Shown one piece after another: positions 6,625 to 18,310 of a DNA stretch of 18,310 nucleotides. Under the pieces are notes generated by a model. It made no database searches and had not been told where the DNA came from. It saw nothing but the letters and a program-made list of their open reading frames with translations. How positions within the stretch are numbered: the first letter of the stretch is position 1; each line of letters begins with the position of its first letter. Origin of the DNA: Bacteroidales bacterium (GTDB taxonomy: Bacteria > Bacteroidota > Bacteroidia > Bacteroidales > UBA932); assembly GCA_017631875.1 (NCBI GenBank), contig JAGBSL010000067.1:1-18310 (forward strand), written 5' to 3'. The translations under genes and the position numbers were made by a program.

Positions 6625-7716
6625 TTATTTAGGGGCGATGCGGTAGAGGATGCCGGCGATGAGGGCGAAAATGATGTTCGGGAGCCAGAGGGCTATGAAT
6701 GGCGGGAGAGTACCGGTATGAACAAACATCTGGCTGAAGCGGAGGAATAGGATGTAGGTGAAGGCAAGAGCGATACCTATACCGATGTTCCAACCGATAC
6801 CGCCCCTTCTCTTCTTTGAAGACAATGCAACACCCATAATGGTCAGGATGAAGGCTGAGAATGGGAGCGCTAAACGGGTATTCTTCTCAATAAGGGCGAA
6901 TTTTACGTTTGCATCTCCTCGCATCTGCTGCGTAGCAATCATATCATTGAGTTCCTCATAATCAAGAGTTTCTACGGTCTTTTCCGTCATATAGAAGTCT
7001 TTAACGGACAAGGCCAGAGTCGTATCCATCTGGCGGCCGCTGCGGATCTTGTCAGTGAGGTCCTCATTATACTCTCTGATGAAGTATTTTTTCAGGCGCC
7101 ATGTACCTTTAAGAGTATCATATACGGCCGTTTCCGCTGAAATTTTAGACACGAGCTTGTTATCCTCTATCCTTTCGATAGTAAAGCGGTAAGCGGTATT
7201 GTTCCATGAACTGAATGACTCGGCATATACAAACTCTCCCGGCGCTGTCTGATAATGGACATTCCTGCCGACGCTCTTATGCCTGTCCTTAATATATTGC
7301 GTTTCGAAATCCAGTCGCGTCTTGTTGGCGTCCGGTATGACGAAAAGGTTGAGCCAAAGCGACAAAAGAGCGATTATGGTCGCTGAGAACACGTATGGCA
7401 CCATCATCCTGTGGAAGCTGATGCCGCAGGAGAGGATGGCTACGATCTCAGAGTCAGCCGCCATCTTGGACGTAAAGAAGATGACCGTAATGAACACGAA
7501 CAGCGGGCTGAACATGTTTATAAAGTACGGAATGAAGTTCAGATAGTAGTCGAAGATGACTGCCTTGAGCGGAGCCTCCTTCGACACGAAGTCATCGATC
7601 TTCTCACTGATGTCGAAGATGATGACAATGCCGATGATAAGCAGCAGCGCCACAAAGAAGGTTCCCATGAACTTCTTTATTATGTATAGGTCTATCTTTC
7701 TTGGTGAGAGATCCAT
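6625..7716 (-). CDS. LptF/LptG family (YjgP/YjgQ) lipopolysaccharide-export permease
   Basis: This 363-residue inner-membrane protein has the LptF/LptG layout. Three N-terminal membrane helices (about 17-35, 62-82, 103-127) are followed by a periplasmic domain (about 130-280) and three C-terminal helices (about 283-299, 308-329, 338-358). Pairs of such permeases bind the ATPase LptB and extract lipopolysaccharide from the inner membrane toward the outer membrane. The N-terminal basic stretch PRKIDLYIIKKF and the short cytoplasmic loop SSKKRRGG are typical. It starts 6 bases after the tgt stop, so the two form an operon, an arrangement I recall as common in Bacteroidota. LptF cannot be told from LptG with certainty. 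The likely partner is the permease half of the fusion gene at 13466-15922. The gene ends at the double-hairpin element. Confidence 0.9.
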   Translation of the reverse strand: MDLSPRKIDLYIIKKFMGTFFVALLLIIGIVIIFDISEKIDDFVSKEAPLKAVIFDYYLNFIPYFINMFSPLFVFITVIFFTSKMAADSEIVAILSCGISFHRMMVPYVFSATIIALLSLWLNLFVIPDANKTRLDFETQYIKDRHKSVGRNVHYQTAPGEFVYAESFSSWNNTAYRFTIERIEDNKLVSKISAETAVYDTLKGTWRLKKYFIREYNEDLTDKIRSGRQMDTTLALSVKDFYMTEKTVETLDYEELNDMIATQQMRGDANVKFALIEKNTRLALPFSAFILTIMGVALSSKKRRGGIGWNIGIGIALAFTYILFLRFSQMFVHTGTLPPFIALWLPNIIFALIAGILYRIAPK

Positions 7717-7722
7717 GGTCTG

Positions 7723-8853
7723 TTAAAGTCTGGTTGTAATCCTCTTTACTGTCTCGTCCTTCCACGCCTTGAAGTCACCAGCCTTGATGTGCTTGCGGGC
7801 CTCACGCACCAGGTCAAGGTAGAATGCGAGGTTATGCTCGCTGGCTATCTGACCGGCAAAGATCTCGCCTGCGATGAAGAGGTGACGCAAGTATGCTCTT
7901 GTGTAAGTATGGTCAACGAATGAAGTTCCCTTAGGATCAAGCGGCGAGAAGTCGTCAGCCCACTTCTTGTTCTTGATATTTATGATGCCATCCCATGTGA
8001 AGAGCATTCCGTTACGACCGTTTCTGGTCGGCATGACGCAGTCGAACATGTCCACTCCCCTTGCGATACCTTCAAGAATGTTCGCCGGAGTACCTACACC
8101 CATGAGGTAGCGAGGCTTGTCTTCCGGAAGAATCGGACATACGACTTCAAGCATCTCGTACATCTTCTCGGTAGGCTCACCTACCGCAAGACCTCCAATA
8201 GCATATCCCTCACGGTCCAGCGCTGCTGCATGCTCAACGGCCTGACGTCGGAGGTCTGGATATACGCATCCCTGAACGATCGGGAACAGCGCCTGCGAGT
8301 ATCCATAAAGAGGTTCGGTCGCATCGAAGTGCTTAGAGCAACGCTCGAGCCAACGCTGAGTGAGTTCGAGGGACTTCTTTGCATATCTGTAGTCGGCATC
8401 TCCCGGGCAGCACTCGTCGAATGCCATCACGATATCAGCTCCGATAATACGCTGAGTATCCATGTTGTTCTCAGGGGTGAACAGGTGCTTGGATCCGTCG
8501 ATATGTGAACGGAAGACGCAACCGTCCTCGGTAAGCTTCCTTATCGGGCTGAGGGAGAAGACTTGGAATCCGCCGCTGTCAGTGAGGATCGGTCTGTCCC
8601 ATGACTCGAACTTGTGGAGTCCGCCTGCAGCCTTGAGCACGTCAAGTCCCGGACGAAGGTAAAGGTGGTATGTGTTTCCGAGGATGATCTCTGCCTTGAT
8701 GTCATCCTTGAGGTCTCTATGGTAAATGCCCTTGACAGAACCCACCGTACCTACTGGCATGAAGATAGGGGTCTCGATCTGTCCATGGTCCGTCGTGATT
8801 ACGCCGCAGCGCGCAGCGGACTGGGGGTCGTTATGTGTCTTTACGAATTTCAT
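7723..8853 (-). CDS. tgt: tRNA-guanine transglycosylase (queuine tRNA-ribosyltransferase)
   Basis: This 376-residue enzyme swaps guanine at the wobble position of GUN-anticodon tRNAs for a queuosine precursor. Motifs are TDSGGFQVFSLSP (Asp92), GGLAVGEP (220-227) and DMFDCVMPTRNGRNG, in which Asp271 aligns with the nucleophile Asp280 of the Zymomonas enzyme. The zinc site is altered: positions aligned with Cys318, Cys320 and Cys323 are Gly309, Ser311 and Asp314, while the His ligand is kept as His340. I recall this replacement from other Bacteroidota Tgt proteins. The ATG at 8853 was chosen because it gives the normal N-terminus MKFVKTHND. A TTG 21 bases upstream overlaps the probable -7 box and is unlikely. 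It is first gene of an operon with the LptF/G permease. Confidence 0.94.
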   Translation of the reverse strand: MKFVKTHNDPQSAARCGVITTDHGQIETPIFMPVGTVGSVKGIYHRDLKDDIKAEIILGNTYHLYLRPGLDVLKAAGGLHKFESWDRPILTDSGGFQVFSLSPIRKLTEDGCVFRSHIDGSKHLFTPENNMDTQRIIGADIVMAFDECCPGDADYRYAKKSLELTQRWLERCSKHFDATEPLYGYSQALFPIVQGCVYPDLRRQAVEHAAALDREGYAIGGLAVGEPTEKMYEMLEVVCPILPEDKPRYLMGVGTPANILEGIARGVDMFDCVMPTRNGRNGMLFTWDGIINIKNKKWADDFSPLDPKGTSFVDHTYTRAYLRHLFIAGEIFAGQIASEHNLAFYLDLVREARKHIKAGDFKAWKDETVKRITTRL

Positions 8854-8871
8854 TAAAATCAATTTAACCCT

Positions 8872-8879
8872 CAAAGATA
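8872..8879 (-). promoter_or_regulatory. Probable -7 element of the tgt operon
   Basis: On the minus strand TATCTTTG fits TAnnTTTG exactly, ending 18 bases before the tgt ATG. No good -33 TTTG is visible. It is back-to-back with the plus-strand box at 8902-8909. Confidence 0.5.
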
Positions 8880-12798: not shown

Positions 12799-13464
12799 TT
12801 AATTCATCATCACCAGCGCAATCGATTTGTGACTGAATTCCAGACGCACCCTGTCCTGTGTCGCTCTGTTGAGTGTCGCTTTCCACCAGTTATCAAAGAT
12901 GACATCATCGGTCTTCCAGGCCAGGCCAGCTGATTTTATCCTTAAAGAGTTATCAGGGCTGAAGATAGAGACTTGTCTCCCTATGCCGCAGTCGAATTCC
13001 AGCGTATCGGTTATCGGGAATATCACCCCGTGGTCAGTGATCATCTGAAGCTGAATTTCCATGGACTCAAGATCATATGTACGCGCATATTCCATCAGCA
13101 GCGATATGTTGCCGATGGTGTGATCCTCCCTCTGTCCTGTGGCTCCTATGATTGTGATTGTACTGATACCTTCAAGATTCTCCAAGGCCCATCTGAACGC
13201 CTTTGTCTGGTCGTTATGCTCCTGCTCGTCTATCTGGATTATTATGTCAGCATACTTATTTCTCAGGCTTGCTGACAGCGAGTCCATGTCACCTACAACT
13301 TTGTCGGGAAGTCTGTCTTCGTCGAAAATTGTCTTGCTGTTCCGGATGAATTTCCTAAGGGCTCCGTCGCAGCAGATTATGAAATCGGCCGTACGGATCA
13401 GGTATCTCGGATACTCAGTCTTAGGAAATGCTCCGTCGCAAATTATGACAACTCCTCCGCCCAT
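12799..13464 (-). CDS. Thiamine pyrophosphokinase (thiamine diphosphokinase)
   Basis: This 221-residue protein transfers a diphosphate from ATP to thiamine, giving thiamine diphosphate, the cofactor of pyruvate- and acetolactate-handling enzymes. The family motifs are all present: CDGAL (32-36), VGDMDSL (57-63) with its acidic metal-binding residues, DQTKA (85-89) and GATGQREDHTIGN (107-119). A beta-rich C-terminal half (from about 140) fits the thiamine-binding domain. The ATG lies one base after the stop of the LptF/G-Fmt fusion gene, so the two are almost certainly cotranscribed and perhaps translationally coupled. The functional link to those genes is not obvious. Confidence 0.92.
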   Translation of the reverse strand: MGGGVVIICDGAFPKTEYPRYLIRTADFIICCDGALRKFIRNSKTIFDEDRLPDKVVGDMDSLSASLRNKYADIIIQIDEQEHNDQTKAFRWALENLEGISTITIIGATGQREDHTIGNISLLMEYARTYDLESMEIQLQMITDHGVIFPITDTLEFDCGIGRQVSIFSPDNSLRIKSAGLAWKTDDVIFDNWWKATLNRATQDRVRLEFSHKSIALVMMN

Positions 13465-13465
13465 T

Positions 13466-14500
13466 TTATCTTCCGGTTATCTTTGATGATGTGCCTTCTG
13501 TCGTTGTGTATGTCATCGGCTCTCTGAATCCAATCAAGAAGTCCTTGACAGGCATTCTCTTCTTGCCGGCGAGCTGCAGTTCTGTTACAGAGATTGCACC
13601 GTCTGCAGTGGCGATTGCAAGGAAGGTCTTTCCGTCCGAGAGCACCGTTCCTGGTGCAGCTGTCTCCATAGAACACTGAGCAAGCATCGTTGCATACTCT
13701 TCACCCTCGACCTTGACTGTCTGGTATATCTTCATCTGCGTAACCTTGTCACCCTTGACCAGCTCTGTGAATGCAGCAGGATATGGGCTCAAGCCGCGGA
13801 TGAGGTTGTAGATGTCCTTTGTGTTGCTTCGCCAGTCGATATGACAGAGCTCACGTGTGAGCTTAGGCGCAGGCTTGAGAATCTCGGATCCCTGGATAAA
13901 GCTCTTCTGAGGGCGGAACTCCACGTTGTTTTCGAATATAGCCTCTACTGTGTTTACAACAAGATCCGATCCCATTGCCATAAGCTTATCGTGAACCTCT
14001 CCGACCGTTTCGTCAGGCCCGATCTTGCAGTCGTATCTGTACATGATTCCGCCGGTATCCATGCCTTCGTCGATCATGAATGTAGTCACACCTGTGGTCT
14101 TTTCTCCGTTGATCACCGCCCAGTTGATAGGCGCAGCTCCACGATACTGAGGCAGGAGGGCAGCATGGAGGTTGAATGTACCCATCTTAGGGATTTCCCA
14201 TACCACCTTAGGAAGCATGCGGAATGCAACCACAACGAAGAGGTCTGCTTTCCATGCCTTCAGTGCTTCAAGGAACTCAGGATCCTTGAGGGATATAGGC
14301 TGAAGTACCGGTATGTTGTGTTCTACTGCATATTTCTTGACCGCGCTCTCATTTACTTTGAGTCCGCGTCCGCTGGCCTTGTCAGCTACTGTCACAACTC
14401 CCACTACTTCATATCCGTTCTTTATAAGCGCATCGAGAGGTGCTACAGCAAACTCCGGGGTACCCATGTACACGATGCGGTTCTTCTTGAAAACTCCCAT
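13466..14500 (-). other. fmt: Fmt part of the fusion, with possible internal start
   Basis: ATG codon 475 (complement 14498-14500) begins MGVFKKNRIVYMGTPEF, which would make a 344-residue Fmt of near-normal length if translated separately. The bases before it (AGATAACATCTAAGATA on the minus strand) hold no Shine-Dalgarno. These genomes rarely use one, so internal initiation cannot be excluded. Confidence 0.55.
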
Positions 14501-15922
14501 TATCTTAGATGTTATCTTCTTGAAACCGTTCTTAAGGTTTCCAAGGTTGAATATTGATGAATCGTTTATTGCCTGCCATGTCAGGTATAGTCCTGTCGGG
14601 AGCAGGATATATGATGAAATGAATACTCCGCTGAACGGTCCTATGGCACCGTCACGGGCGAGCTTCGTTCCGGTAATGTCGATTACCCAGTAGAATACGA
14701 AGAACAGCACGGATATGATTGCCGGCGTACCCAGACCACCCTTTCTGATCAGGGCTCCGAGAGGAGCTCCGATGAAGAAGAAGATCAAGCAGGCGATCGA
14801 GAGAGCGAACTTCTTGAGTATCTCGATGTCTATGAGCCTTAGAGTGTATGTGTGGTGGTATCTCTCGCGTGAGAATGAAGCAAGAGTTCCCTGGAGGTCT
14901 TCGGCATTGCTCTTTGCCTTCTCGTATGCCGATATCTGTGACTCCAGAGACTTCCACTTGTCGGTATCCTTCTTGATGAATGGGGTTGTTCTTCCAGCCT
15001 TTCCAGCCGAGTCAAGCTGCGAGTTGTATCTAAGTGTCCTTGAAGTCTGTACGGACCTCACGTTCGCCATCTTGCCTTCATGGTTGAGGGCTCCGATGGA
15101 GTCCTGGCCATGCTGCAGCTGCTTGAGGTTCATTGATTTCACCTGGTCGTTGAAGCGGCTCGAGTCAGATTTCTGGAAGGCATAGTTTTTCAGAGGAATG
15201 ATCAGCTCCTGCATCATGAAGTCGATCTTCTGCAGCTGAAGCGTCGTGTCGCGATACTTTCTTGTATTGGTCTCTTCATAGTTCGCTCCGTCGTAAAGAG
15301 TGAAGGTAAGGTAAGTCTTGTCCTTCGACATCTTCATCAATGCGGAGTCTGCAAGCGTGAGGCTGGTGTTACCCTTGTTCTTTGTGTGGTTATATACCAT
15401 CACGCCGTACATCATGTCAGTCTCGTCGTTTCTTTCGTCGACACGAAGAATGTAGCCGTCGATACCGTTGTAGAAGGTACCTGTAGGAATTTTGATTTCC
15501 TCCTTGGTCTTTCCGATATCATCTCTGAGGGTGTAGATCTTGTTATAGGCAACAGGAATCAAGTCATTGGAGATGAAGAATGCACCGACACTGATCGCTC
15601 CGCAGATTATCGCGAGCGGTATCAGCACTCTCTGGAGGGAGATACCGGCAGCCTTGATAGCCAGCAGCTCGTTGTTTTCTCCAAGCGTACCTAGGGTCAT
15701 CATTGACGACAGCAAGGTTGCTAGAGGAAGGGACAGAGGCAGCAGAGTGGCGCTGCCCCAGCCGAGGAACTCAAGGATAACCTTGAGACTCAATCCTTTA
15801 CCGACCAGTTCATCAATGTACAGCCACAGGAACTGCATCATCAGGATGAACACGACCACCAGCAGGATCGCTATGAACGGTCCCACAAATGACTTTATTA
15901 TGAACTGGTCGAGTTTTTTCAT
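13466..15922 (-). CDS. LptF/LptG-type permease fused to methionyl-tRNA formyltransferase
   Basis: One 818-codon frame without stops encodes two complete proteins. Residues 1 to about 470 are a YjgP/YjgQ permease of lipopolysaccharide export. It has membrane helices near 10-36, 55-80, 97-122, 371-391, 399-417 and 430-450, with a long periplasmic region (about 123-360) including a charged helical stretch near 320-350. Residues about 475-818 are a full Fmt, which formylates initiator Met-tRNA using 10-formyl-tetrahydrofolate. It shows RIVYMGTPEFAV (482-493), Asn584 and His586 in FNLHAALLPQYRGAAP, and Asp622 in MDTGG, matching Asn106, His108 and Asp144 of E. coli Fmt. The linker is nearly absent. 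The permease C-terminus should be cytoplasmic, so the fusion is topologically sensible. Alternatives are internal initiation at codon 475, or an assembly error removing a stop. The thiamine pyrophosphokinase gene follows by one base. Confidence 0.9.
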   Translation of the reverse strand: MKKLDQFIIKSFVGPFIAILLVVVFILMMQFLWLYIDELVGKGLSLKVILEFLGWGSATLLPLSLPLATLLSSMMTLGTLGENNELLAIKAAGISLQRVLIPLAIICGAISVGAFFISNDLIPVAYNKIYTLRDDIGKTKEEIKIPTGTFYNGIDGYILRVDERNDETDMMYGVMVYNHTKNKGNTSLTLADSALMKMSKDKTYLTFTLYDGANYEETNTRKYRDTTLQLQKIDFMMQELIIPLKNYAFQKSDSSRFNDQVKSMNLKQLQHGQDSIGALNHEGKMANVRSVQTSRTLRYNSQLDSAGKAGRTTPFIKKDTDKWKSLESQISAYEKAKSNAEDLQGTLASFSRERYHHTYTLRLIDIEILKKFALSIACLIFFFIGAPLGALIRKGGLGTPAIISVLFFVFYWVIDITGTKLARDGAIGPFSGVFISSYILLPTGLYLTWQAINDSSIFNLGNLKNGFKKITSKIMGVFKKNRIVYMGTPEFAVAPLDALIKNGYEVVGVVTVADKASGRGLKVNESAVKKYAVEHNIPVLQPISLKDPEFLEALKAWKADLFVVVAFRMLPKVVWEIPKMGTFNLHAALLPQYRGAAPINWAVINGEKTTGVTTFMIDEGMDTGGIMYRYDCKIGPDETVGEVHDKLMAMGSDLVVNTVEAIFENNVEFRPQKSFIQGSEILKPAPKLTRELCHIDWRSNTKDIYNLIRGLSPYPAAFTELVKGDKVTQMKIYQTVKVEGEEYATMLAQCSMETAAPGTVLSDGKTFLAIATADGAISVTELQLAGKKRMPVKDFLIGFREPMTYTTTEGTSSKITGR

Positions 15923-15982: not shown

Positions 15983-18310
15983 CTATCCGATAGCAGATTC
16001 AATCAATTTAGCAAGGGCGTCAGCAAGACCGTCGACGTTCTTGCCGCCGGCTGTCGCGAGGCCTGGCTGTCCGCCGCCACCACCCATGACGAGCTTGGCA
16101 GCTTCGCGAACGTCAGCACCTGCATTCTTGCCGGCCTTCACGAGGTCCTCTGAGTACATGAGCAGGAGCTGTGGCTTACCTGCTGCCTCGAATGCCGCAG
16201 CTATCACGAAGTTCTCAGTCTCCTTCTGGAGCATGAATGCTGCATTCTTGAGCATTGATGGATCGATGCTGTAGTCAATGATGACAACGTTCTTTCCGCC
16301 TATCTCCTTGGCAAGCTCCTTGAGGCTGTTCTTGAGGGTTACGGTCTTTTCTCTGATGACTTCTTCCATCTGCTTCTTGTATGTCTCATTCTCTTCAACC
16401 ATCTTCTTGATAGCGGCTGCAAGATCCGGTGCGTTGTTGAAGAATGCCTTTGCAATGCGGATAGATGTCTCCATTCCGTCTACAATGAGCTCGGCATGAA
16501 CGCCAGTAGTTGCCTCGATGCGGCGTACTCCGGCTGCAATAGCTGACTCTGAAGTGATCTTGAAGAATCCGATCTGTCCTGTCGCAGCTGCGTGTGTACC
16601 ACCGCAGAGCTCACAAGACTGGCCGAACTTCACTACTCGAACCTTATCGCCGTATTTCTCTCCGAAGAGGGCCATAGCGCCCATCTCCTGAGCCTCTTCC
16701 ATAGTTGCGGAGCGGTTCTCATCAAGTGGATAGTTAGCCCTGATAAGAGCGTTCACTCTCTTCTCGACTGCATCGATCTGCTCCTCGCTGAGCTTCTCGA
16801 AATGCGAGAAGTCGAAACGGAAGTACTGATCGCATACATACGATCCCTTCTGCTCCACGTGTGTTCCGAGGATCTCGCGGAGAGCCTGGTGGAGAAGGTG
16901 GGTCGCAGTATGGTTGTTCTCGATCTGGAGTCTTCTCTCAGTGTCCACATGGAGGCTGAAGCTCTCGGTGCAGTCAGCAGGGATGCGCTCTGCAACGTGG
17001 ATAGTGAGGTTGTTCTCCTTGATTGTATTTACGATGTTGATCTTCTCACCGCTCTCAGAAAGGATGTAACCGGTATCGCCTACCTGACCTCCCATCTCGG
17101 CATAGAATGGTGTGCGCTCGAATACGAGCTGGAACATGGTCTTGTTCTTCGCCTTTACTGTGCGGTGACGTGTAAGCTGGACTCCCTCGATCTCTGTAAG
17201 GTCATAACCTACGAACTCGATGTTGTCACAGTGTACGAACTCCACCCAGTCGCCAGACTCGATTGCAGTTGCGTTACGCGCTCTGTCCTTCTGCTTCTGG
17301 AGCTCTACCTGGAAGCCCTCGAGGTCGATCTTGTAACCCTTCTCGGAAGCGATAAGCTCAGAGAGGTCGATTGGGAATCCGAATGTGTCGTAGAGTACGA
17401 ATGCATCCTCGCCGCTGATGAGCTTAGTCTCTGCAGACTTAGCCATGATGTTGTCCATCAGGCGTATACCTCTGTCGAGAGTACGGAGGAATGCCATCTC
17501 CTCTTCCTTGATCACGCGCTCTATGAGTGTCTGCTGCTTCACGATCTCAGGGTAGAACTCACCCATATCGTCAACCAGCTGCTGTACGAGGCGGCAGATG
17601 AAAGGCTCGTTGAATCCGAGGAATGTGTATCCGTAACGGACTGCGCGGCGGAGGATTCGGCGGATGACGTAGCCGGCCTTCACGTTAGAAGGAAGCTGGC
17701 CGTCAGCAATAGAGAAGCTGATCGCACGGATGTGGTCAGCGATGACTCGCATTGCGATATCCTCTTCAGTTGTATTTCCATATTTGTGTCCTGAAAGCTC
17801 CTCGATCTTTGCAATCATGCCTGTGAATACGTCGGTATCGTAGTTAGACTGCTTGCCCTGGAGAGCCATGCAGAGGCGCTCGAAGCCCATTCCTGTATCC
17901 ACGTTCTTGTTAGGGAGAAGCTCAAGCTCGCCGCTTGCCTTGCGGTTGTACTGCATGAACACGTTGTTCCAGATCTCGATCACGAGGTGATGATCCTTGT
18001 TCACGAGTGATGCGCCGGGAACGGCTGCACGCTCCTCGTCAGAACGGAGGTCGATGTGGATCTCAGAACATGGTCCGCAAGGGCCTGTGTCGCCCATTTC
18101 CCAGAAGTTGTCCTTCTTGTTTCCGAGGAGGATGCGGTCCTCAGGGAGGTGCTTCTTCCATGCTTCCATAGCCTCAGTGTCGAGCGATGTGCCGTCAGCC
18201 TCAGAACCCTCGAATACAGTTGCATAAAGTCTGTCTTTGTCAAGCTTATAAACCTCTGTGAGAAGTTCCCATGCCCAGTCGATGGCCTCTACCTTGAAGT
18301 AGTCGCCGAA
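15983..18310 (-). CDS. alaS: Alanyl-tRNA synthetase (5' end outside window)
   Basis: The frame runs open to the window edge, giving 775 residues that start [17 protein letters not shown] within the catalytic core. The enzyme charges tRNA-Ala and clears mischarged serine or glycine. The visible parts are the rest of the aminoacylation domain ([22 protein letters not shown]) and the editing domain. Its zinc site consists of His467 and His471 in HTATH, and Cys569 and His573 in CGGTH. The C-terminal oligomerisation (C-Ala) domain ends with the glycine run [14 protein letters not shown]. All four editing ligands sit exactly 97 residues before their E. coli numbers (564, 568, 666, 670), so about 97 N-terminal residues are missing. 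It is the upstream neighbour of the fusion gene by 60 bases. Confidence 0.97.

Follow-up and report, generated by a model that had tools for sequence, protein, structure and literature searches.

Is a reading frame that joins a lipopolysaccharide-export type permease to methionyl-tRNA formyltransferase (Fmt) a true gene, how could it have arisen, and in which form would it supply Fmt to the cell? These questions are raised by one frame in the window (the whole stretch of 18,310 nucleotides that was analysed), the features of which are collected in the table below. Fmt is considered to be a soluble enzyme, and no link between it and lipopolysaccharide export is known to us. No report of an lptF-fmt fusion was found among the papers searched, judged by titles and the openings of abstracts.

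Table. Features of the lptF-fmt fusion gene and its neighbours, in positions of the window.
Feature	Position	Strand	Evidence or remark
lptF-fmt fusion gene, 818 aa	13466..15922	-	open frame; Pfam and NCBIfam matches to both halves; full-length homologues
LptF-like permease half, residues 1-449	14576..15922	-	
Linker, residues 455-482, mostly low-confidence predicted helix	14477..14560	-	AF2 pLDDT <50 at 455-479
In-frame ATG at codon 475, probably kept as the start of a free Fmt (344 aa)	14498..14500	-	conserved position, start-like context, weaker folding
Methionyl-tRNA formyltransferase half: Formyl_trans_N 482-658 and Formyl_trans_C 687-799	13526..14479	-	
Fmt catalytic Asn584 and His586	14165..14173	-	conserved in 240/240 listed fused relatives
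Fmt catalytic Asp622	14057..14059	-	conserved in 240/240 listed fused relatives
Thiamine diphosphokinase gene (thiN)	12799..13464	-	ORF; Pfam and NCBIfam matches
alaS	15983..18169	-	60 bases upstream of fusion gene
Separate LptF/LptG-family permease	6625..7716	-	best NCBIfam score is LptG, below cut-off

The frame runs from an ATG at 15922 to a stop ending at 13466 and contains no internal stop codon. Pfam analysis of its translation revealed LptF_LptG (PF03739) at residues 7-449 (E 1.4e-64), a full-length match above the gathering score, followed by the two domains of Fmt, Formyl_trans_N (E 3.2e-35) and Formyl_trans_C (E 4.4e-22). The Fmt half passes the NCBIfam fmt equivalog TIGR00460 (232.8 bits for a cut-off of 201.5). 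Residues N584, H586 and D622, which we take to be the catalytic residues of Fmt, align with E. coli Fmt (1fmt) and are conserved in all of the 240 related fused proteins that make up the best 120 matches of each of two protein searches. Pfam, TIGR00460 and the alignment to 1fmt agree with the proposal of the earlier note that one 818-codon frame holds a permease and a complete Fmt with its Asn, His and Asp. The permease half misses the NCBIfam LptF equivalog TIGR04407 (136.2 bits for a cut-off of 230), and the other permease of the window misses the cut-off of TIGR04408 (172.1 for 240); the permease half is therefore named LptF-like. Between the last predicted membrane helix, which reaches to about residue 453, and the first Fmt strand at residue 482 lies a linker of about 25-30 residues, modelled at low confidence, so that the description of the two halves as joined with almost no linker was roughly correct. 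The arrangement of the domains in the AF2 model was disregarded (pTM 0.43).

A single base separates the stop of the fusion gene from the ATG of thiN, and both genes therefore probably share one operon. The separate permease of the window is the likely partner subunit of the fusion's permease half. The two LptF/LptG-family permease genes lie on the same strand, less than 10 kb apart, and the gene adjoining the LptG-like one (7723-8874) is, by its look, presumably tgt.

The same architecture was encountered throughout the close relatives. All three Pfam domains were present in 240 of the 240 proteins that formed the best 120 matches of each of the two protein searches, and protein clusters of the fused sequence hold up to 190 member sequences. 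Genome contigs scanned with the Fmt half delivered 74 loci, 31 of them fused; these 31 comprise every locus whose Fmt half is at least 71% identical, the remaining ones reaching 54% at most. The earlier note had suggested a search of related Bacteroidales for one spanning protein and had allowed that close relatives might all carry two genes; the spanning protein was found, and the second possibility fails at each of the 31 closest loci. According to their record titles, 30 of these belong to a Bacteroidales bacterium and one (L028) to a Bacteroidia bacterium, and many titles name the ruminant gut. Two different lptF-fmt fusions (L017 and L025) occur in one assembly (JALFNZ01), which is probably a mixed metagenome bin.

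At least 145 of the 299 sampled genomes of the window's family are fused, a number composed of 144 of the best 150 matches listed, which carry no stop flag, and of genome G239, which is flagged for a stop and yet fused in its DNA (L094). The 144 unflagged matches cross the junction in one open frame, a few of them ending at contig edges, and the other flagged ones read as separate genes (G054, G247 and G191, at loci L161-L163; G180 and G121, at L150 and L142). In 295 Bacteroidales genomes, a sample that holds few members of the window's family and in which fusions cut by contig ends may be missed, one frame spanning the whole query was present among the matches listed in G001, G031 and G014, all members of the window's family. 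A search of a plasmid collection gave no match. A chance frame was rejected on the ground that the same frame occurs in many separately assembled genomes. Many of the relatives are metagenome-assembled according to their record titles, but an assembly or sequencing error that deleted the stop codon between two genes can be dismissed, the same frame being present in the 31 contig loci, in the family genomes counted above and in the large protein clusters. Judged from these reading frames, the fusion is real, stable and lineage-wide.

Genomes of relatives were also searched for additional copies of either half. With the fmt model, the single match over the cut-off was the fused gene in 8 of 8 and 22 of 22 fused genomes, and no second full fmt was found in these 30 draft genomes, weaker matches staying far below the cut-off. 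A PF03739 search of 12 related genomes placed two permeases above the cut-off in 11 of them and one in G068; in G086, an additional weak match accompanied the two permeases. As indicated by these model searches, the fusion holds the sole fmt over the cut-off in the fused relatives tested.

The organisation of unfused genes gives an indication of how the fusion arose. Forty fused and 40 unfused loci of the family were picked by hand from 149 listed matches, a choice that does not represent frequencies. Among the 40 unfused loci, 33 are preceded by an lptF-like frame in the same orientation and seven are not, two of the seven (L115 and L117) offering little upstream sequence. Without L125 and L154, where the lptF-like frame is about 1 kb away, and with the addition of L031, this gives 32 tight lptF-fmt pairs, 15 of which are in frame 1, 15 in frame 2 and two in frame 0. 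By hand count, a candidate ATG, GTG or TTG start of fmt precedes the lptF stop in 22 of the 32 pairs. Since 30 of the 32 tight pairs are in different frames, a small indel merging the two frames appears as the likelier fusion step than the loss of a stop codon. The simple stop loss proposed in the earlier note is thus probably not the route, considering these out-of-frame pairs together with the 22 overlapping start candidates.

Several unfused loci deserve mention in their own right. In L118, L119, L123 and L133, the stop codon of lptF falls inside the stretch that encodes the first strand of Fmt, and the shared bases are consequently constrained by both proteins; in L131 and L147 it comes shortly ahead of that stretch. 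L142 and L150 have both genes in one frame with a TAA and a few codons between them, where read-through of the stop would yield a fusion protein without any mutation. The order lptF, ribBA, fmt was observed in a more distant Bacteroidales genome (L155:160-4041), an order hinting that lptF and fmt may have become neighbours in the window's family once ribBA was lost. Two loci of other Bacteroidales (L156:369-2438 and L157:414-2393) code for an LptF-like permease with a C-terminal extension of its own, about 170 amino acids long and displaying a hydrophobic stretch near its end. In G417, an open frame of 918 aa was considered as a fusion of LptF with a different enzyme and rejected, as lptF, ribBA and fmt are separate there.

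Phylogenetic analysis addressed the number of fusion events. The Fmt tree (108 rows), which leaves out the distant L045-L069, L073 and L074 as well as L039 and 19 of L001-L030 as near-copies, implies four changes of state, of which starred branches force two. The joint tree of LptF and Fmt (82 rows), which also leaves out L085 and L106, truncated at contig ends, as well as the loci lacking an lptF nearby, implies three, all forced. In AU tests, a single origin of all 50 fused rows was rejected (p 3e-76), and so was a single clade for A, B and D (p 0.0004). A grouping of clade A, to which the window belongs, with its sister clade B has a support of only 7, and the two may or may not share one origin. 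The fused L086 has the unfused L141, L127 and L135 as its nearest relatives. The junction sequences differ strongly between clades, which fits separate gains. On these trees, the fusion appears to have been gained more than once, or to have been gained and then split again. The linker of clade D (L092, L096, L101, L109, L114, L167-L174 and L178) contains Gly, Ser and Thr (e.g. GSTDGxLSR), unlike that of the other clades.

The form in which Fmt is produced would depend on the internal ATG at codon 475. This ATG precedes the first strand of Fmt by eight codons and thus stands close to the place where fmt starts when it is a gene of its own. In the 120 close proteins (best 120 matches), a Met at this position (-8) was always present, beside variable positions. 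An ATG at -10 to -4 was found in 32 of the 32 closest sequences (the window and the 31 loci) and in 61 of 70 sequences of clade A, nine of its 38 wider members lacking one. A Met at -5 or -6 occurs in 10 of the 20 sequences without Met -8 and in 0 of the 50 with it (Fisher p 5e-7, computed ignoring kinship), these counts coming from related and hence not independent sequences. The fused L159, L166 and L175-L177 were assigned to no clade and stand outside the clade-wise ATG counts; L165 was missed by the motif though fused, L185 is a duplicate of L177, and L164 seems to be one of L029.

In order to rate the start context, the 20 bases before each codon were scored for resemblance to the start contexts of these genomes (193), taken from mechanically chosen frames of at least 250 aa and not from curated genes, and the scores were set against those of synonymous draws. 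Codon 475 reached a mean z of 1.58, which is rank 4 of 815 positions and the first of 27 Met positions; the three positions above it are the last codons of the gene, whose scores may be caused by the region before the thiN start. Folding at codon 475 is weaker than in the synonymous draws (12 members), six of 201 other positions being as high. In the rest of clade A, unused in the first result, 25 of 29 members were positive for a start-like context. The window displays an A at -3 of ATG 475, and adenine at -3 favours initiation in Flavobacterium johnsoniae according to a report on that organism (PMC6847099). Among 808 positions in clade D, the Met at -24 ranks first (five members), and all 12 members with an ATG in the -24 zone, these five included, are positive. 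Codon 475 is thus an in-frame ATG with a start-like context beyond synonymous expectation. The mean score of the internal ATG is reached by 9.5% of the other in-frame ATGs of the near set and by 14.7% of those of the wider set. A peak of synonymous conservation was sought at codon 475, and none was found beyond the level that clade B displays there without an ATG, unlike at the true N-terminus, where the peak is strong. Conservation within the window's clade extends to the linker residues around Met 475, and the Met may for that reason be kept merely as a residue.

The reading that we favour, and regard as fairly probable, is that of a stable LptF-like-Fmt fusion that is the sole fmt of the relatives, was born from an indel and yields both the 818-aa fusion and a free 344-aa Fmt. 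The ancestor would have had an lptF-fmt pair in different, mostly overlapping frames, which a small indel would have merged. Translation from the permease start would give the 818-aa protein, the permease part of which would reside in the inner membrane with an LptG-like partner; the Fmt part would hang off the cytoplasmic end of the last helix and, as predicted from its domains, formylate Met-tRNA(fMet). In the window's clade, the old fmt start ATG 475 would have been kept and ribosomes would start there as well, producing the free 344-aa Fmt. Internal initiation is considered most likely because ATG 475 is kept in a start-like context.

Release of Fmt after translation by a protease that cuts the linker, in which case neither lasting tethering nor internal initiation would matter, is improbable: the low confidence at which the linker is modelled and its divergence between clades would accommodate such a cut, but its conservation within the window's clade speaks against it. 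An explanation that is somewhat less remote, although still unlikely, is that ATG 475 is just a conserved Met and all Fmt of the window's organism is membrane-bound fusion. The flat synonymous conservation at codon 475 agrees with it, and so does clade B, which is also fused: among its 119 listed proteins, 76 are free of Met over the 38 residues that precede Fmt and 107 over the nearest 12, P0176 having been missed by the motif in this count. In four of the 40 sampled fused family genomes (L075, L085, L091 and L111), no ATG, GTG or TTG exists within 45 codons, and the same is true of L176; the 16 of 40 counted as lacking an ATG within this distance include L104, unmeasured owing to a wrong motif. 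The genomes hosting the first four loci (G266, G237, G238 and G207) have the fused gene as their only fmt over the cut-off. With a sole fmt and no inner start, their Fmt would have to come from the fusion, whole or cut by a protease, unless the drafts miss a second copy. Against the extension of this explanation to the window stand the start-like context and the weak folding of ATG 475 beyond synonymous expectation, and the fact that in several relatives the ATG shifts in position rather than vanishing. Production of both the fusion and free Fmt therefore stays the preferred reading for clade A.

The situation in clade B is different. A start-like context was not found at the homologous codons of this clade. 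Eight of its nine members with an ATG at -38 to -4 score positive, which blurs the contrast with clade A, and some members may start at such an inner ATG. The clade B members devoid of a linker Met probably make Fmt only as a fusion. It is conceivable, though we put this forward tentatively, that formylation of the initiator tRNA, in those members of clade B whose linker offers no start codon, is carried out solely by permease-tethered Fmt at the inner membrane, and that the fusion was gained repeatedly since tethering or strict co-expression pays. The earlier note had opposed an Fmt tethered at the membrane to a free Fmt made from codon 475. Its choice of codon 475 as a start remains plausible, but the two products are not exclusive alternatives, as the window's clade shows signs of both and the sister clade mostly lacks an internal Met.

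Comparison with known systems helps to place the protein. With Fmt (TIGR00460; E. coli 1fmt/2fmt) it shares the two-domain enzyme, the Asn/His/Asp triad and the GRG loop, but its Fmt has the N-terminus joined to a membrane permease. It matches the permeases of LptB2FG (PF03739) in family and fold, and a second PF03739 permease is present in the same window; in contrast to LptF and LptG, however, the permease bears a 340-aa enzyme at its C-terminus, and its permease part is about 100 residues longer than LptF chains of 365-366 aa. ArnA, 10-formyl-THF dehydrogenase, linear gramicidin synthetase and HypX/HoxX are likewise single-chain fusions of a formyltransferase domain, with solved structures, in which this domain is N-terminal, whereas here it is C-terminal and the partner is a membrane permease. 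To our knowledge, none of these four formylates initiator tRNA. Other genes are known that yield two products of unequal length owing to a second start within the frame, and the fusion resembles them in the start codon inside the frame and its apparent constraint; it differs in that the short product would be a whole gene which stands alone in relatives, and in that the support comes from sequence bias.

If the proposal for clade B is true, a normally soluble step of bacterial translation initiation would be membrane-bound in this clade. A family whose sole fmt sits on an exporter-type permease offers a test case from nature for asking whether a diffusing enzyme is required for formylation, and also whether an envelope protein can set the dosage of Fmt. 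The series from overlapping genes to a fusion with an inner start, and from there to a fusion without one, would illustrate how overlapping genes of an operon merge.
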